NCBI GenBank assembly: GCA_026982705.1
Contig: JALSGP010000046.1
Coordinates: 1 to 64,000 of the forward strand
Length of the DNA: 64,000 nt
From: Alphaproteobacteria bacterium
Lineage (GTDB): Bacteria > Pseudomonadota > Alphaproteobacteria > Geminicoccales > Geminicoccaceae
Direction of reading: 5' to 3'
Below are positions 12,854 to 21,264 of the stretch, piece by piece; position 1 is the stretch's first letter; each line of letters starts with the position of its first letter. The notes beneath the pieces were generated by a model. That model ran no database searches and had not been told where the DNA came from. It worked only from the letters and a program-made list of their open reading frames with translations. Both the position numbers and the translations under genes were made by a program.

Positions 12854-13882
12854 TCACGCGCCGCGCTCCTCCGCGAGCCGGGCGGCGACCTCCATGGCCG
12901 CATAGGTCAAGATGGCATCGGCACCCGCCCGTTTGAAGGCGAGGAGACACTCCCGCAGGCAGGCCTCGGCGTCCAGCCAGCCCAGCCGCCCCGCCGCCTT
13001 CACCATCGCGTACTCGCCGGAGACGTGATAGACGAGGGTGGGCAGGCCGAAGTGTTCCTTCACCGCCCGCACCACGTCGAGATAGGGAAGGCCGGGCTTG
13101 ACCATCACCATGTCCGCCGCCTCGGCCACGTCCAGCGCCACCTCCCGCAGCGCCTCCTGCACGTTGGCCGGCGACATCTGGTAGGTCTTCTTGTCGGCCG
13201 TCCCCAGCGCCGCCCTGGAGCCCACGGCGTCGCGGAAGGGCCCGTAGAAGGCCGAGGCGTATTTGGCGGCGTAGGAGAGCACCACCGTCTCGGCGAACCC
13301 CTCGCGGTCCAGCGCCTCCCGCACCGCCCGGATGCGCCCGTCCATCATGTCCGAGGGGGCGACGATGTCGCAGCCGGCGGCCGCCAGCGTCACCGCCTGC
13401 CGCTGCAGGGCCACCAGCGTCTCGTCGTTGAGGACCACTCCGTCGCGCACCAGCCCGTCCTGGCCGTGGGTGGTGTAGGGATCGAGGGCCACGTCGCCGA
13501 TGATCCCCACCTCCGGCACGTGGCGCTTGATCTCGCGGATGGCGCGACAGACCAGATTGTCCGGGTTCCACGCCTCCTCTGCCCCCTCGCTCTTGCGCTC
13601 GGGCGGCGTGGCCGGGAACAGGGCCACCGCCGGGATGCCCAGCTCGGCGCAGCGCTCCACGGCCGCCGGCAGCAGGTCCACCGACAGCCGCTCGATGCCG
13701 GGCAGCGAGGGAACCGGTTCGCGATGGCGCCGTCCCTCGCAGACGAAGAGCGGCTGGATCAGATCGGCGGCATCCAGCCGGTGCTCCGCCACCAGCCGGC
13801 GCAGCCACTCGGTGCGCCTGAGCCGACGCAGGCGCAGTGCGGGGAAGGACGCGAGGGAGACACCCATGGCCTTGGCCGACAT
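12854..13882 (-). CDS. hemB: Porphobilinogen synthase (delta-aminolevulinate dehydratase)
   Basis: Condenses two 5-aminolevulinates to porphobilinogen in tetrapyrrole synthesis. The 342-residue sequence shows [59 protein letters not shown] with the first Schiff-base lysine region, and [10 protein letters not shown] with the second. [14 protein letters not shown] has aspartates in place of the cysteine triad of zinc enzymes, pointing to the Mg-dependent type common in alphaproteobacteria. It lies 93 bp after the giant coiled-coil gene on the same strand. Confidence 0.96.
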
Positions 13883-13974: not shown

Positions 13975-16900
13975 TCATCCCGCCGTCAGCACGATCTCGA
14001 TACGGCGGTTGCGGGCGCGGGACGCGTCGTCGCGATTGGGCACCAGCGGGCGGGTGTCGGCCCAGCCGGCCACCAGCATGCGCTCGCGGGGAATGCCCAT
14101 CTCGGCGAGGAAACGCGCCACCGCCGCCGCCCGCGCCGCCGACAGTTCCCAGTTGTCGCGATAGCGCCCGCGCACCACCGGCAGGTCGTCGGTGTGGCCG
14201 TCGATGCGCAGCACCCACGGCAGATCCTCGGGCAGGGCCGCCAGCGCGTTGCGCAGCTCGAGGGCGAGGGCCGTCAGACGCTGGCGGGCCTCCGGCGTGA
14301 GTTCGGTGCGTCCCTGGGGGAAGAGGATGTCGCTGGAGAGCACCAGCCGCCCCGGCTCGACGTGCAGGAGGTCCTCGTCGCCCGGAAGATGGGCCGCGAG
14401 GGCCGCGGTCCCCTCGATCTGGGCGCGGCGGATCTCCTCGAGACCGGCGGCGAGCCGATCCGGCAGCGTGCGCGAGCCCCGCAGCTGCCGGCGCAGCTCC
14501 GCCACCACCGGCGCGAACCTCGCCCGCTCCAGCTCCTCCTCGAGGGCGCGGATGCGAGCCTCCCGCGCCGTCAGCTCCGCCCGCAGCCGCTCGAGCTCCG
14601 CCTCGAGCCCGGCCACCCGTGCCGTCAGCCGCGCGCTCTCCTCGCGGGCCTCCGCGAGGGCCTTCTCCGTCTCGGTGCGCGCCGTCTCGGCGGCGCCGGC
14701 CCGTCGCTCGAGCTCGGCCAGCCGCTCCCGGACCGCGGCGGCCGCCCGCGCCAGTTCGCGTACGCGCGCCTCGGCCGCCGCCTGGGCCTGCCGCGCCGTC
14801 TCGAGTTCGTCGGCGATCCGGGCCCGCGCCGCGCGCAGCTCCGCCGCCTCCTTCCGCGCCGCGGCGAGATCCCGCTCCAGCGCCTCGATCCGCCCCGTCG
14901 CCGCCCGCAGCCGCTCGCGCAGTTTCGAAGCCGTCCGTTCGAGCGCCCGGGCGGTCATCCGCGTCTCGTTCCACGCCCCGCGCAGGTCGGCGAGCTCGCC
15001 CTCGAGGTCCACCGCCCGCGCCTCGGCCTCCTCGCGGGCCTTCCGCTCGGCGGCGAGGGCGCGCTCCAGTTCGGCCAGCCGGCCGCGTGCGGCGGAGAGC
15101 TCCCCGCGGGCGGCGGCCAGCGCCTTTTCGCGTTCCGCGAGGCGTGCACGCGCCTCGTCGAGCCCGGAGCGGGCCTCGGCGAGCGCCCGTGCCAGCTCGC
15201 TCCGCGCTTCTTCGCCGGCGGCGAGACGCTCGCGCAGGGTCTCCAGCTCCGCGGCCAGCGTCTCGCGTTCCCGCGTCGCCGCGGCGAGGCGGGTGCGCAG
15301 ATCGGCCAGCACACCCTCCAGCTCCCGCACCCGGGCCTCCGCCCGTGCCCGCGCCTCCCGGATCCCGGCGAGGTCGCGCGTCAGCGCGGCGAGACGCTCC
15401 CGCGTCGCCTCTCCCTGCCGGCGCATCCCGGCCAGCTCCGCCTCCAGCCTACGGACCCGCCGCTCGGCATCCCCACGCGCCCGCGCGGCCGCCGCCAGCT
15501 CCGTCTCCAGCCGTTCGCGCTCGCGCGCCAGGGAGTCGCGCTCGCCGCGCACCCTCTCCAGTTCGGAAGCGAGACGATCGCGCTCGGCCCGCAGTCCGGC
15601 GAGGCGGGCCCGCGTCTTCTCGAGAGCCCCTTCCAGCTCCCGGTTGCGGGCCGCCAGCGCCCGTGCCGCCTCCAGTTCCCGTGTCCGCTCGGCGAGCTGC
15701 GTCCGCAGACGCCCGAGATCGCCCTCGAGTTCGGCGATGCGCGCCTGCGCCCGCGCGCGCTCCCGTTCCAGCCGGGCGAGCCGGGCCTGGAGACGCGCCC
15801 GCTCGGCGCGCAGGTCCGAAAGCTCCTTCTCCAGCCGGGCGAGATCGGCCTCGCGGGTCCGACGGGCGTCGCGGGCCGCGGCGTCGTCGGGACGGGCCGC
15901 CGCCTCGGCCCGCAGCCGTTCCACCTCGGCAGCGAGGCGGGTGCGCTCCGCCTCCAGCGCGGTGAGCCGCGTCTCCGCCTCCCGCAGCCGCGTCCGCAAC
16001 GCCTCCTGCTCACGCCGGAGTTCGGCGGCGCGGCGGCGGACCGTCGCCAGTTCCCCCTCCAGTTCCCGGATGCGGGCGGCGAGGCGCGTGCGCTCGGCAT
16101 CCAGCTCCCGCAGCCGGGTCCGCACCGCGGCATCCGCCTCGTCCCGGCGCCGCAGCTCCGCTTCCAGCGTCGCGACGCGCGCCCGCAGGCGGCCCACTTC
16201 CTCCTCCCGCGCGGCCAGCGCGGCCTCCAGCTCGCGCACCCGGGCCTCCGCCTTCTCGGCCCGCCCCGACACCTCGGCCAGCCGCCGTTCCAGTTCGGCG
16301 CTGCGGGCGGCCGTCTCCGCGGCGGCCTCGCGCGCCCCGGCGAGGGCCGCCTCCAGTTCGTCGATCCGACCACGCCCGGCCTCGGCCTGTGCGCGGGCCT
16401 CCGCCAGCATCCGCTCCAGCTCGGCCACACGGGCGCCCGCTTCCTCGCGGGCCGTCCGGGCCTCGGCCAGGGCCGCCTCCAGTTCGCCCGCCCGGGCGCT
16501 CGCCGCCCGCGCCCGCTTCCGCAGCGCCCGCAGCTCCGCCTCCAGCTCCGCCATCCGCCGGCGCGCCAGATCCGCCGCCTCCGCCGTCTCCGCGAGCCGG
16601 CGTTCCAGTTCCGCCACCCGCGCCGCGGCCCGCTCCGCCTCCTCACGGGCGGCGGTGAGCTCGCGTCGGCGCTCGTCGAGCCGGGCCACGGCCTCGTCAC
16701 GCCCCCGCTCGGCCGCCGCCAGTGCCCGTTCCAGTTCCGCCACCCGTGCCTTCGCGGACTCCGCCTCGCTCCGGGCCCGCGTCACCGCCTCCTCCAGCTC
16801 GGCGAGGCGGCGGCGGGCGTCGGTCAGCTCCTCGCTCGCCCGCCGCAGCTCGGCGATCCGGGCCCGCACCGTCTCGCGGTCGGCCCCGGCCTCGAGGCCC

Positions 16901-17076
16901 AGCGCGGTCCCCGTCTCGTCCAGCCGCGCGCGCAGCTCGGCGATGCGGGTGGAGGCATACCAGGCGAGGCCGGCCGCCACCGCCAGCGGGATCGCCACCG
17001 CCACCACCAGCCGGCGGCGGTTGCGCCGCTCCCAGACCCGCAGATCCCGTTCCAGTTCCTCGATGCGGTCGGTCAT
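13975..17076 (-). CDS. Giant coiled-coil envelope protein with C-terminal OmpA domain
   Basis: A 1033-residue protein with a short cytoplasmic head, one transmembrane helix (about residues 23-41), then some 820 residues of almost unbroken Glu/Arg/Ala/Leu heptads (roughly 45-870) and an OmpA/MotB peptidoglycan-binding domain at about 900-1033 ([34 protein letters not shown]). A rod this long could span the periplasm, but its true architecture is unknown. The helix lacks the membrane aspartate of MotB, so it should not conduct protons. Its OmpA domain resembles that of the MotB-like protein at 17511 far more than generic OmpA, suggesting duplication. ATG 17076 overlaps the two-helix gene by 4 bp. 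Function unknown. Confidence 0.85.
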
Positions 17077-17426
17077 CGCCCCGTCCCTTCCTCACCACCG
17101 GTGCCGTAGGCGTGCCGCAGCAGGGCCACCACCCGCGCCGCCGCATCCGGCCGCCCCTCGGCGATGGCCTCCCATTCCTCGGCCAGTGTGCGCAGTCCCG
17201 CCTCGCGCTCGCCGTGTTCCAGCCAGACATGCCAGGGCAGCAGGGCCAGGGCGAGCGCCATCGCCCCGGTGGCGACGGCGGCGAAGGCCCGATCACCCCC
17301 CATCCCCATGCCGAGGGCCATCAGCAGCAGGCCGGCGATCGCCAGCAGGAGGGCGAGGGCGGCGCTCCCGCGCCGCGCCGCCCGATGGATGTCGGCGAGA
17401 CGGTTCCAGACGGCCTCGGGCCGCAT
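17073..17426 (-). CDS. Two-helix membrane protein of the envelope cluster
   Basis: A 117-residue protein with a basic amphipathic head (VWNRLADIHRAARRG), two adjacent transmembrane helices (ALALLLAIAGLLLMALGMG and AFAAVATGAMALALALLPW), then a charged cytoplasmic-type tail (EREAGLRTLAEEWEAIAEG). I do not recognise a family. It lies 84 bp after the MotB-like gene, and its stop overlaps the start of the giant coiled-coil gene (ATGA), so both are probably translated together. ATG 17426 is chosen behind GGGAGGG, though the spacing is long (about 13 bp); an in-frame GTG lies 12 bp upstream. Confidence 0.7.
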   Translation of the reverse strand: MRPEAVWNRLADIHRAARRGSAALALLLAIAGLLLMALGMGMGGDRAFAAVATGAMALALALLPWHVWLEHGEREAGLRTLAEEWEAIAEGRPDAAARVVALLRHAYGTGGEEGTGR

Positions 17427-17510
17427 GCGGTCGCGCACGCCCTCCCTTCCCCGGCCGACCCGCCGCGAGCTTGCCGGAGCGGGCCGAAAAGGCAAGGGGC
17501 GCGACGGCGC

Positions 17511-18713
17511 TCAGCGGGTGGTGAGCTTGATCTCGATGCGGCGGTTGCGCCGGTAGGCCTCCTCGGTGTCCCGCGGATCCAGCGGCTGGTAGTGGGCGAA
17601 ACCGCGCGCCGCCACCCGCTCTGGCGGGATGCCGTGCTCGATCAGGAAGCGGGCCACGGCAATGGCGCGGGCGGTGGACAGTTCCCAGTTGGAAGGAAAG
17701 CGCGGCGTGCGGATGGGCCGCTTGTCGGTGTGTCCGTCCACCTGGAGCACCCAGGGCAGATCCTCGGGGATGCGCGGCATGATCTCGCGGAACACCCGCA
17801 CGAAGGTCTCGAGCTGCCGCCGTCCCTCCGGGTTGAGCTCGGCGCTGCCGGTGTCGAAGAGGATCTCCGACTGGAAGACGAAGCGATCGCCCACCACCCG
17901 CACGTCCGGCCGATCCCCCAGCACCTCGCGCAGGCGGCCGAAGAAGTCGGAGCGGTATCTGGACAGCTCCTCCACCTTGCGCGCGAGGGCCAGGTTGAGG
18001 CGGGCGCCGAGATCGCGGATCACCTCCGCCTGGCGGGCGATCTCCTCCTCGCGGACGTCGAGGGCGGCGGCGAGCTGGCGGAGCTGGCGCCCCAGTTCCC
18101 GGATCTGCCGCGAGAGGGTGGCCACCTGCACCAGGGCCTGCTGCCGCTCCCGTTCGATGCGGGCGCGCTCCGCCTCGAGTTCGCGGATGCGCGCCTCCAG
18201 CCCCGCCTCGCGTTCGGCGCCGGCCCGCCGCGTGGCCTCCAGGGTCCGCCGGGTCTCGGCCAGCGCCGTCTCCAGCCGCGCCGCCCGCGCCTCCACCTCG
18301 CGCCGGGCCGCCTCCGCCGCCCCCAGCCGCGCCTCCATCTCCCGCAGGGAGCCGGTGAGCCGGGCCACCCGCCGCTCCAGCACCTCGCGATCGGCGGCGG
18401 CGGCGGCGAGCCTGGCCTCCGCCTCCTCGCGCCCGGCCAGCAGGCTGTCGAGGTCGCTGGAAAGCCGGGCGATCTCCCGGCGCAGCCGGCCGGTGACCGC
18501 CCGCTCCTCGGCAAGCCGCCGCTCCAGCTCCGCCACCTGGGCGCGGAGCCGCTCGACGGTGACGTCGCTCCGCTGCAGCAGCCGTCCCAGGAAGAACTGG
18601 GCCAGGACGAAGATGGCCAGCAGGAAGATGACCACCATGAGCAGCGTCGACAGGGCGTCGACGAAGCCCGGCCAGATGTCGACGCGCTCGCGGACGGCGC
18701 GGGGCCGCGGCAC
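17511..18713 (-). CDS. MotB-like stator protein with long coiled coil and OmpA domain
   Basis: A 400-residue inner-membrane protein. The N-terminus VDIWPGFVDALSTLL leads into a helix (MVVIFLLAIFVLAQFFLG); Asp19 at the helix entry sits where MotB and ExbD-like proteins hold the proton-carrying aspartate. Residues about 50-250 are coiled coil; about 260-400 form an OmpA-type peptidoglycan-binding domain (EILFDTGSAELNPEG, VDGHTDKRP, FPSNWELSTARAIAVARFL, RNRRIEIKL). It lies 6 bp after the MotA/ExbB-like gene, its likely channel partner. Flagellar MotB and TolR are unlikely, given no flagellar or tol genes nearby and the extra coiled coil. Confidence 0.88.
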   Translation of the reverse strand: MPRPRAVRERVDIWPGFVDALSTLLMVVIFLLAIFVLAQFFLGRLLQRSDVTVERLRAQVAELERRLAEERAVTGRLRREIARLSSDLDSLLAGREEAEARLAAAAADREVLERRVARLTGSLREMEARLGAAEAARREVEARAARLETALAETRRTLEATRRAGAEREAGLEARIRELEAERARIERERQQALVQVATLSRQIRELGRQLRQLAAALDVREEEIARQAEVIRDLGARLNLALARKVEELSRYRSDFFGRLREVLGDRPDVRVVGDRFVFQSEILFDTGSAELNPEGRRQLETFVRVFREIMPRIPEDLPWVLQVDGHTDKRPIRTPRFPSNWELSTARAIAVARFLIEHGIPPERVAARGFAHYQPLDPRDTEEAYRRNRRIEIKLTTR

Positions 18714-18719
18714 GGCGGC

Positions 18720-19901
18720 TCACTCCCCCGGCAGCGCCTGGGGTTCGCCGGCGGCGATGGCGACGGTGCGGGTGAGCACCCGGATCTCGTCCCGCAGCTC
18801 GCGGGTGGAGATCTCGCGCCCGCGCACCGTCTCCTCCAGGAGCTGGCCGAGGCGGGCGTCGATGCTGCGCAGATGGCGGCGCAGCTCGTCGTCGACGGCG
18901 ACGATGCCCCGTTCCAGACGCTCGCCGACGGCCTTCTGGGTCTCCACCAGCCGGCTCAGGATCTGCTGATCGCGGCGCAACCGGTCGTCGAGGGCGGCCA
19001 GCGCCTCGGTGAGGGCGCCGAGCTGCCGCACCAGCTCGCCACGCGCCGCCTCGCTGCGCCGCTGGGCGTGCTCCAGCCGCTCCAGGTTCTCGGCCGTCTG
19101 CTCGAGGAGCGCCTGCACGTAGGTGGGAACGGGCTCGCCCTGGGCCGGCACCGCCGCCCGCCGCCGCTCCTCCCGCACCGCCACCGCCCCCGTCCCGGCG
19201 GCGGGGGCGGTGTCGTGACGCACCAGCCCCGACAGCCACTCCTCCACCTCGTTGTAGAAGGCGTTCTGGGCCTGGGTGGCCTGGAGGTCGACGAATCCCA
19301 GCACCAGCGAGCCGGCGAGGCCGAAGAGGGAGGAGCTGAAGGCGGTGCCCATGCCGGAGAGGGGCGAGGCGAGACCGGCCTTGAGGTCCTCGAAGACGGC
19401 GGCGAGATCGGCCGTGCCCAGCTCCAGGTCGGCGATCACCCCCGCCACCGCCTCGATGGTCCGCAGCAGTCCCCAGAAGGTGCCGAGCAGCCCGAGGAAG
19501 ATGAGCAGTCCCGTCTGATAGCGGGTGATGTCGCGGCTCTCGTCGAGGCGGGCGGCGATGCCGTCCAGGAAGTAGCGGACGGAGAGGGGCGAGAGGGCAC
19601 GGGTCCCGTTGCCCGATTCGGCGAGCAGCGCGGCGAGGGGCCCCAGCAGCCGCGGTCCCTCGCGGCCGGCCGTGATCCGCCCCTGCTCGAAGGCGGCGAT
19701 CCAGCGGATCTCCCGCCCGAGCACCAGGATGCGGCGGACGGTGTAGGCGATGCCCACCGCCAGCACGCCGAGGATCAGCCCGTTGAGGGCGGGATTGTGC
19801 AGGAAGGCGCCGAGGAGGATGTCGTGGACCGCCGCCGCCACCAAGAGCGCCGCCGCCAGGAACAGCCACACGCGGTTGAGGAAACGCCTGGGATCGGTCA
19901 T
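18720..19901 (-). CDS. MotA/TolQ/ExbB-like proton channel protein with coiled-coil tail
   Basis: A 393-residue protein with two N-terminal helices (VWLFLAAALLVAAAVHDILL and LNGLILGVLAVGIAYTV), a cytoplasmic stretch, then the conserved channel pair: LLIFLGLLGTFWGLLRTI and SGMGTAFSSSLFGLAGSLVLGFVDL, the signature of the MotA/TolQ/ExbB family. From about residue 255 to the end it is a charged cytoplasmic coiled coil (ENLERLEHAQRRSEAARG and so on), much longer than in ExbB or TolQ; ZorA also has a long tail. It begins the four-gene minus-strand cluster, 106 bp after tyrS. Likely an ion-driven envelope motor subunit; its load is unknown. Confidence 0.88.
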   Translation of the reverse strand: MTDPRRFLNRVWLFLAAALLVAAAVHDILLGAFLHNPALNGLILGVLAVGIAYTVRRILVLGREIRWIAAFEQGRITAGREGPRLLGPLAALLAESGNGTRALSPLSVRYFLDGIAARLDESRDITRYQTGLLIFLGLLGTFWGLLRTIEAVAGVIADLELGTADLAAVFEDLKAGLASPLSGMGTAFSSSLFGLAGSLVLGFVDLQATQAQNAFYNEVEEWLSGLVRHDTAPAAGTGAVAVREERRRAAVPAQGEPVPTYVQALLEQTAENLERLEHAQRRSEAARGELVRQLGALTEALAALDDRLRRDQQILSRLVETQKAVGERLERGIVAVDDELRRHLRSIDARLGQLLEETVRGREISTRELRDEIRVLTRTVAIAAGEPQALPGE

Positions 19902-20007: not shown

Positions 20008-21264
20008 TCACCCCTCCACGACCCGCACCCGGGCGTGCCGCTTGCGGCCGGCGGAGAGCTGGATCTCCGATCGGCCGTCGAAGTGCTCCGGCCGCAACAG
20101 CAGCCGCTCGTCCCCGATGCGCAGCCCGTCGAGCCGCGCGCCGCCGCCGCGGATCAGCCGCCGCGCCTCGCCGTTGGAGCGGGTGAGACCGGCACGGGTG
20201 AAGAGTTCCACCACCGGGATCCCCCGCACCAGCTCCGAGCGCGACACCTCCAGCACGGGCACCGCCGCCACGTCGCCGCCCCCGCCCTCGAACAGCGCCC
20301 GCGCCGCCTCCGCCGCCCGCCGTGCCGCCGCCTCGCCGTGGGCGAGACGGGTCGCCTCGAAGGCCAGCACCTTCTTGGCCTCGTTGATCTCGGCCCCCTC
20401 GAGCCGCTCCAGCCGCGCGATCTCCGCGAGCGGCAGTTCCGTGAACAGCCGCAGGAAGCGGCCCACGTCGGCGTCCTCGGTGTTGCGCCAGAACTGCCAG
20501 TATTCGAAGGGGGAGAGCTTCTGCGGATCCAGCCACACCGCCCCCTTCACGGTCTTGCCCATCTTGGCGCCGGAGGCGGTGGTGAGCAGCGGACAGGTGA
20601 GCCCGAAGAGCCGGATCCGGTCCTTCTTGTGGGCGAGTTCGATGCCGCAGACGATGTTGCCCCACTGGTCGGAACCGCCCATCTGCAGCCGGCAGCCGTG
20701 GCGACGGGCCAGTTCCAGGAAGTCGTAGGCCTGCATGACCATGTAGTTGAACTCGAGGAAGGTGAGCGGCTGCTCGCGCTCCAGCCGCTGCCGCACGCTC
20801 TCGAAGCCGAGCATGCGGTTGACGGTGAGATGGCGTCCGTATTCGCGCAGGAAGGGGATGTAGCGCAGCTCGTCCAGCCAGGTGGCGTTGTCGACGAGGA
20901 GGGCGCCACCCTCGGAGAAGTCGAGGAAACGCGAGAGGGATTCGAGGATGCCGCGCTTGTTGCGCTCGATCTCCTCCTCCGAGAGCAGCCGCCGGGTCTC
21001 GTCCTTGCCCGACGGATCGCCCACCTTGGTGGTGCCGCCGCCCACCAGCGCGACGGGCCGGTGGCCCGTGCGCTGCAGCCACCGCAGCATCATGATGGTG
21101 AGCAGATGGCCCACGTGCAGGCTGTCGGCGGTGCAGTCGTAGCCCACATAGGCGGTCACCCGCTCCCGGAGGAAGAGCTCGTCCAGTCCCTCCGGGTCGG
21201 TGCACTGGTAGATGAAGCCGCGCTCGTCGAGGATCCGCAGGAATTCGGAACGGAAACGCGCCAT
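20008..21264 (-). CDS. tyrS: Tyrosyl-tRNA synthetase
   Basis: Class I aminoacyl-tRNA synthetase charging tRNA-Tyr. The 418 residues carry [16 protein letters not shown] (HIGH motif HVGH), [47 protein letters not shown] and the KMSKS-type loop GAKMGKT. An S4 domain closes the protein ([23 protein letters not shown]). ATG 21264. Upstream, 10 bp away, is the alpha/beta hydrolase gene on the same strand; downstream begins the channel cluster. Confidence 0.97.

Follow-up and report, generated by a model that had tools for sequence, protein, structure and literature searches.

The ZorA-ZorB pair, a described counterpart to the locus reported here, is a 5:2 motor whose A subunits turn while its B subunits stay anchored in the peptidoglycan (PMC11890865); the Zorya system to which it belongs depends on binding to peptidoglycan, on ion flow and on the tail of ZorA. 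AglRQS of Myxococcus is a motor that touches the transmembrane protein GltG and powers a complex spanning the envelope (PMC3169522), and a 2025 survey described the non-flagellar B subunits of this superfamily as having no OmpA homology (PMC12505986). Here we describe a four-gene cluster, A-B-C-D, in a 64,000-nucleotide stretch of an alphaproteobacterium of the Geminicoccaceae (contig JALSGP010000046.1 of assembly GCA_026982705.1, positions 1 to 64,000; hereafter the window), encoding a channel subunit (A), a MotB-like subunit (B), a two-helix membrane protein (C) and a giant coiled-coil rod (D). A-B is a class-wide layer and C-D an add-on of one family. We think it probable that A and B form a wall-anchored, ion-driven 5:2 motor and that D, which appears to have no motor role, is a long tether or an output arm. 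What the analysis shows directly is gene order, the fold of A, the conserved aspartate and OmpA residues, the distribution of the genes and the periodicity of the coils.

As gene A fell under the Pfam cut-off, a structural test was needed for its family assignment. An AlphaFold2 model built on 46 relatives (predicted local distance difference test score, pLDDT, 83.7) was confident in the channel domain, and its best Protein Data Bank (PDB) match by Foldseek was ZorA (8vvn, E 5e-4), followed by TolQ, ExbB, MotA and PomA; all 50 listed PDB matches belong to the MotA/TolQ/ExbB/ZorA superfamily, with E-values from 5e-4 to 6e-2. Judged by this model A is a protein of that fold, and beyond its last membrane helix the model has helices at residues 260–331 and 338–383 in a tail with marked heptad periodicity (z ~11), in agreement with an earlier reading of the window from its sequence alone (the sequence-only reading), which had taken A for a channel of the MotA/ExbB kind whose tail is a cytoplasmic coiled coil. 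The alignments of A showed GTFWGL (with T141) in the third transmembrane helix (TM3) and GMGTAFSSSLFGLAGS in TM4 to be invariant, and LGTFWG was kept in 88 of 91 relatives. The pore-lining TM3 carries the conserved polar-residue motif GT[FV]WG, as expected of the channel superfamily, and we take the T141 region to be the counterpart of the ExbB/TolQ threonine. The PADLOC ZorA profile also matched A (2.6e-13), and a profile of A aligned to ZorA across the GTFWG region, weakly (E 0.004).

Gene B scored well above the cut-off of the NCBIfam family NF006543/PRK09039, "peptidoglycan -binding protein" (434.6 vs. 305 bits), and is a member of it; the NCBI name gives a binding role only, with no cellular function attached. 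At the entry of its single membrane helix B carries Asp19 within the motif WPG[FYW]VDAL, and this residue was present in all 90 relatives (82 by pattern and eight read by eye), an invariance that upholds the suggestion that the partner is MotB-like and keeps the proton aspartate, and that offers a handle for a single-residue test. The solved structures closest to the OmpA domain of B are those of MotS and MotB, residues D330 and R349 of this domain were invariant in the alignment, and the PADLOC ZorB profile matched B; Pfam and NCBIfam profile scans gave no TolR/ExbD match, and B has the OmpA domain instead. A non-flagellar A paired with a clear OmpA-domain B contradicts the generalisation of the survey (PMC12505986) and is an exception worth adding to it.

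A was found in 245 of the 385 Alphaproteobacteria genomes sampled (E ≤ 1e-30), nearly always in single copy; a phylum-wide sample gave only five matches outside the class, and a scan of GTDB contigs gave at least 583 relatives. B directly follows A in 90 of the 91 loci examined. D is far more restricted: its N-terminal module was detected in four of the 385 class genomes, all four in the window's own Geminicoccaceae-like family, and no sampled genome outside this family carries D. Within the family, D is present in 24 of 32 genomes (10 of 16 genera) and A in 31 of 32, and in 22 of the 24 D-bearing genomes, spanning 10 genera, the two genes share a strand, with D no more than about 3 kb downstream of A. 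Because this order is kept in other genomes, the cluster is not a chance arrangement. The four genes do co-occur, as the sequence-only reading had anticipated, but not as one ancient unit, C-D being confined to one family and unlinked from A-B in one genome (G017); likewise the synteny it had proposed to look for in Rhodospirillales extends more widely than that order for A-B and is limited to one family for D. An ion-driven motor found in about two thirds of the sampled Alphaproteobacteria, beside housekeeping genes, should serve a basic envelope task. Its parts are of known kinds, and the class-wide A-B pair, annotated as it is, yet appears to be unstudied in the open-access literature searched.

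Most other lineages appear to use a different partner. In 53 of the 91 loci, none of them D-bearing, a gene that we call U lies directly upstream of A, the common order being efp, an inositol-monophosphatase-like gene, U, A and B (examples within loci L043-L120 are L059:8696-9910 and L065:8861-9865; numbers with the prefixes G, L and C are our labels for genomes, loci and contigs). Azospirillum brasilense (locus L084) is one carrier of U, A and B. The U product looks secreted, without a membrane anchor, and is rich in proline and alanine; its C-terminus is a degenerate OmpA-like domain in which SLSRALAVR is kept and the GHTD aspartate motif is lost. U matched in 103 of 190 class genomes (E ≤ 1e-15, with typical values of 1e-20 to 1e-45 outside the window's family), and the 32 family genomes gave weak generic OmpA matches only (best 1e-14, mostly weaker than 1e-10), so that by these searches the window's family seems to lack U. 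Since U occurs elsewhere and is seemingly absent from the family that has D, the motor seems to have swapped a proline-rich for a coiled-coil partner; D appears to have been exchanged for U as the second periplasmic partner of the motor and may replace it functionally, in which case the two arrangements are a natural experiment on the role of that partner. We therefore propose, tentatively and at slightly less than an even chance, that A-B is a rotary motor found across the Alphaproteobacteria, so far unstudied, with an exchangeable periplasmic partner: in most lineages U, an OmpA-like protein that is rich in proline and probably disordered, and in a single family C-D, a hairpin plus a rod of 600–1700 residues that the motor would pull, wind or brace against the cell wall.

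Gene D encodes the giant rod with a peptidoglycan-binding-type domain that had been described from the sequence. The heptad (3.5-residue) hydrophobic periodicity of its coil is 33 standard deviations above that of shuffled sequence, and a single proline, P396, occurs between residues 31 and 855. AlphaFold2 rendered the rod all-helical at low confidence (pLDDT 69; predicted template modelling score 0.30), with breaks near residues 203, 395, 577, 716 and 850; of the coil-internal breaks only that at 395 falls at a proline, and on this model the rod may be either a set of hairpins or one straight helix. Orthologues range from 623 to about 1700 residues, so the length of D is not a tight ruler. 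Compared with the same-genus genome G002, the OmpA part is best conserved (78%), followed by the N-terminus (63%) and then the coil (45–49%), and GHTD (D963) and NWELSxARA (R982) were invariant in the OmpA domains of 11 D orthologues. The N-terminus and membrane helix are conserved (ELExHLRxWE...GWYAYDR), and in the alignment the helix is uncharged, without any acidic residue, so D has no MotB-like Asp-bearing helix. In genome G008 (L031:6423-9698) the OmpA domain of D is degenerate (EGRTD..., with NRRIEI lost), and from these residues wall binding by that protein may be weakened.

The sequence-only reading had seen in D a duplicated MotB-like gene that had lost its aspartate, a reading that the data do not establish. 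D and B have only the OmpA domain in common, and the N-terminus and membrane helix of D bear no resemblance to those of B; D falls below the NF006543 cut-off (183.9 vs. 305 bits), and its profile matches are to the OmpA domain and generic coiled-coil models only. In a second OmpA-domain tree D formed one clade (100/79) whose placement among the other OmpA domains is not firm, and constraining D with B of the same family was neither rejected nor supported (approximately unbiased test, p = 0.42). We set the duplication aside, as the tree does not place D and its anchor is unlike that of B.

For the working of the locus we infer a 5:2 stoichiometry, ion coupling, rotation, peptidoglycan binding, a contact of C-D with A-B, and a purpose. 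Five A subunits would surround two B helices in a non-flagellar rotary motor of the 5:2 class, the OmpA domains would hold B to peptidoglycan, and protons passing Asp19 of B would rotate the A ring round B, the moving part being A with its cytoplasmic coiled-coil bundle; by homology with ZorAB, A should assemble in this ratio and should turn. A-B would be a general envelope machine of Alphaproteobacteria, partnered by U in most of the others surveyed and usually by C-D in its place in the Geminicoccaceae-like family. C would form a hairpin in the membrane, both its ends on the cytoplasmic side, and D would be a single-pass rod with its peptidoglycan-binding-type domain at the far end, most likely a second long, slack tether or output arm beside the motor that couples it to the wall. 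Between a passive tether and a driven arm, a tether or brace beside the motor is favoured, and the purpose may be to regulate or sense how the inner membrane is connected to the cell wall.

Several points weigh against this reading. The score of A against Pfam PF01618 MotA_ExbB was below the gathering score (13.2 vs. 22.9 bits, E 0.076), and a PF01618 search of its own genome did not recover A. In G017 the C-D pair is on another contig than A-B, and in G011 D and A are also on different contigs; seven family genomes have A without D, and D is therefore not needed for the motor. C was not found in the D-bearing loci L026, L034 and L039. As one straight helix the coil of D would be ~120 nm long, several-fold longer than a typical periplasm, a geometry that is unexplained. 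Finally, the open-access literature searched yielded no study of the A-B pair and no experiment on it.

An alternative is that the target of the A ring is the membrane helix of D, in the manner of TolQ-TolA or AglR-GltG, making D a driven force transducer to the wall and B an ion-carrying plug only. D crosses the membrane once with its N-terminus inside, both this terminus and the membrane helix are conserved, its gene adjoins the motor genes, and A also resembles TolQ and ExbB, so that both the fold of A and a single-pass periplasmic protein beside the motor recall TolQ-TolR-TolA-Pal and ExbB-ExbD-TonB. A precedent is AglRQS-Glt, a non-flagellar proton-driven motor of the same superfamily that contacts GltG and drives an envelope-spanning complex (PMC3169522). 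However, B has a MotB-like OmpA domain rather than the TolR/ExbD domain, which fits a fixed B, whereas AglQ/S are of the ExbD/TolR type; most A-B genomes have no D, and the partner found elsewhere, U, seems to be a secreted protein lacking a membrane anchor. No Glt-type genes were recognised at these loci (the whole genomes were not searched for them), and the genome has its own tolQ-pal and exbB. We regard such an energiser as unlikely, though it is the most serious competitor to a wall-anchored A-B motor with D as tether or arm.

It is also rather improbable that C-D is an independent envelope tether that adjoins A-B and does an unrelated job. The unlinked pair in G017, the many A-B loci without D, and the secreted B-like/D-like pairs that lie without an adjoining motor gene in G008 and G020 would all suit such independence; against it stand the same-strand linkage in 22 of 24 genomes of 10 genera and the close packing of the four genes in the window.

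A Zorya-type anti-phage system with unusual partners is very doubtful. The fold and cytoplasmic coiled-coil tail of A and a MotB-like B with an OmpA domain are common to both, ZorA is the best structural match of A, and PADLOC profiles for ZorA and ZorB match A and B. On the other hand, no zorC, zorD, zorE, zorF or zorG was recognised beside the window cluster by Pfam, and none by eye near the family loci, so the absence of effectors nearby that the sequence-only reading had remarked on stands; the locus is class-wide and nearly always single-copy, here between tyrS and hemB, B has a long periplasmic coil, C and D are extra, and the genome has a further ZorAB-like pair at another place. An auxiliary flagellar stator is the least credible reading of all: like MotA-MotB and MotP-MotS, the locus has an A-B pair with a helix-entry aspartate and an OmpA domain on B that is nearest to MotS and MotB among solved structures, but A is nearer ZorA, TolQ and ExbB than MotA and lacks the large torque-generating loop (its TM2-TM3 loop is short, ~65 residues in the AlphaFold2 model), B has a long coiled coil, there is no flagellar context, and the genome has its own motA-motB pair. 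The Zorya and flagellar readings were set aside.

The open reading frame (ORF) listing of the window places the four genes in one minus-strand run where the sequence-only reading had put them (Table 1), with 6 bp between A and B (18714-18719) and the C stop and D start sharing an ATGA (17073-17076). In all four genes identity to G002 is lower at third codon positions than at positions 1 and 2 (e.g., 0.92/0.94/0.70 for A and 0.71/0.66/0.47 for D), which confirms the A, B, C and D frames as coding.

Table 1. Coordinates of the A-B-C-D cluster, its domains and its neighbours in the window.
Feature	Position	Strand	Basis
Gene A, MotA/TolQ/ExbB/ZorA-fold channel subunit, 393 aa, four membrane helices	18720-19901	-	AlphaFold2 + Foldseek
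A residues 1-231, channel domain	19209-19901	-	alignments of relatives
A residues 260-383, predicted cytoplasmic coiled-coil tail	18753-19124	-	AlphaFold2 helices + heptad periodicity
Gene B, MotB-like peptidoglycan-binding subunit, 400 aa, PRK09039 family	17511-18713	-	NCBIfam
B Asp19 codon, presumed ion-binding, at entry of single membrane helix	18657-18659	-	alignment
B residues 45-262, coiled coil	17928-18581	-	heptad periodicity z 14
B OmpA-type peptidoglycan-binding domain	17541-17861	-	PF00691, E 3e-17
Gene C, two-membrane-helix protein, ~121 aa	17073-17438	-	conserved family in D-bearing loci
Gene D, single-pass, giant coiled coil + C-terminal OmpA domain, 1033 aa	13975-17076	-	ORF
D N-terminal module, cytoplasmic ELExHLRxWE helix + membrane helix, family-specific	16891-17076	-	alignment
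D residues 45-855, heptad coiled coil	14512-16944	-	periodicity
D OmpA domain	14005-14325	-	Pfam E 1e-16
tyrS, cluster neighbour	20008-21264		Pfam
hemB, cluster neighbour, other side	12854-13882		Pfam

Gene C probably starts at GTG 17438 or ATG 17426, rather than as the 140-residue ORF, and is the two-helix protein that had been predicted; it matched no named family at cut-off among the profiles searched. Its conserved tail, predicted to be cytoplasmic, reads ER.ER..GL..L..EW...LL..LY, and the family was found in the window locus and in L022, L025, L027, L028, L031, L035-L038 and L181. In the last of these (L181:5627-8692, G017:C4) C and D stand together at a distance from A-B, immediately following the gene of an SMC-type protein. 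In many family genomes (loci L025-L039, e.g., L035:2415-2870 and L037:12643-13200) a small conserved protein is encoded divergently upstream of A, with the motif IDPDKVCxIIxxAR... and the C-terminal end DRTAEYLLGMPLLADYLEEGLAAFG.

The separate motors of the genome, identified by sequence reading and Pfam, are motA-motB on contig C42, tolQ and pal at C46:70.8-74.6 kb, and exbB on C19. The earlier remark that flagellar, tol and exb genes are missing from the surroundings is correct inside the window; beyond it, ~51 kb from the cluster, the same contig carries tolQ and pal. The separate ZorAB-like pair (G000:C9:56811-59045; L179 7812-8708, 8715-10046) consists of a 298-residue MotB-like protein with an OmpA domain and a 443-residue ZorA-like protein, and is located between genes for a Lon-type protease and a universal-stress-type protein, with no recognisable zorC, zorD or zorE beside it. 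A secreted paralogue of B, in which a signal peptide replaces the Asp helix, is encoded at L021:6534-7880 (G000:C33) and in L023, L029, L032 and L040; in the window's own genus it adjoins an rmuC-like gene, and in G008 (L032) and G020 (L029) it lies, with no motor gene adjoining, beside its own secreted coiled-coil OmpA protein of 770–790 residues.

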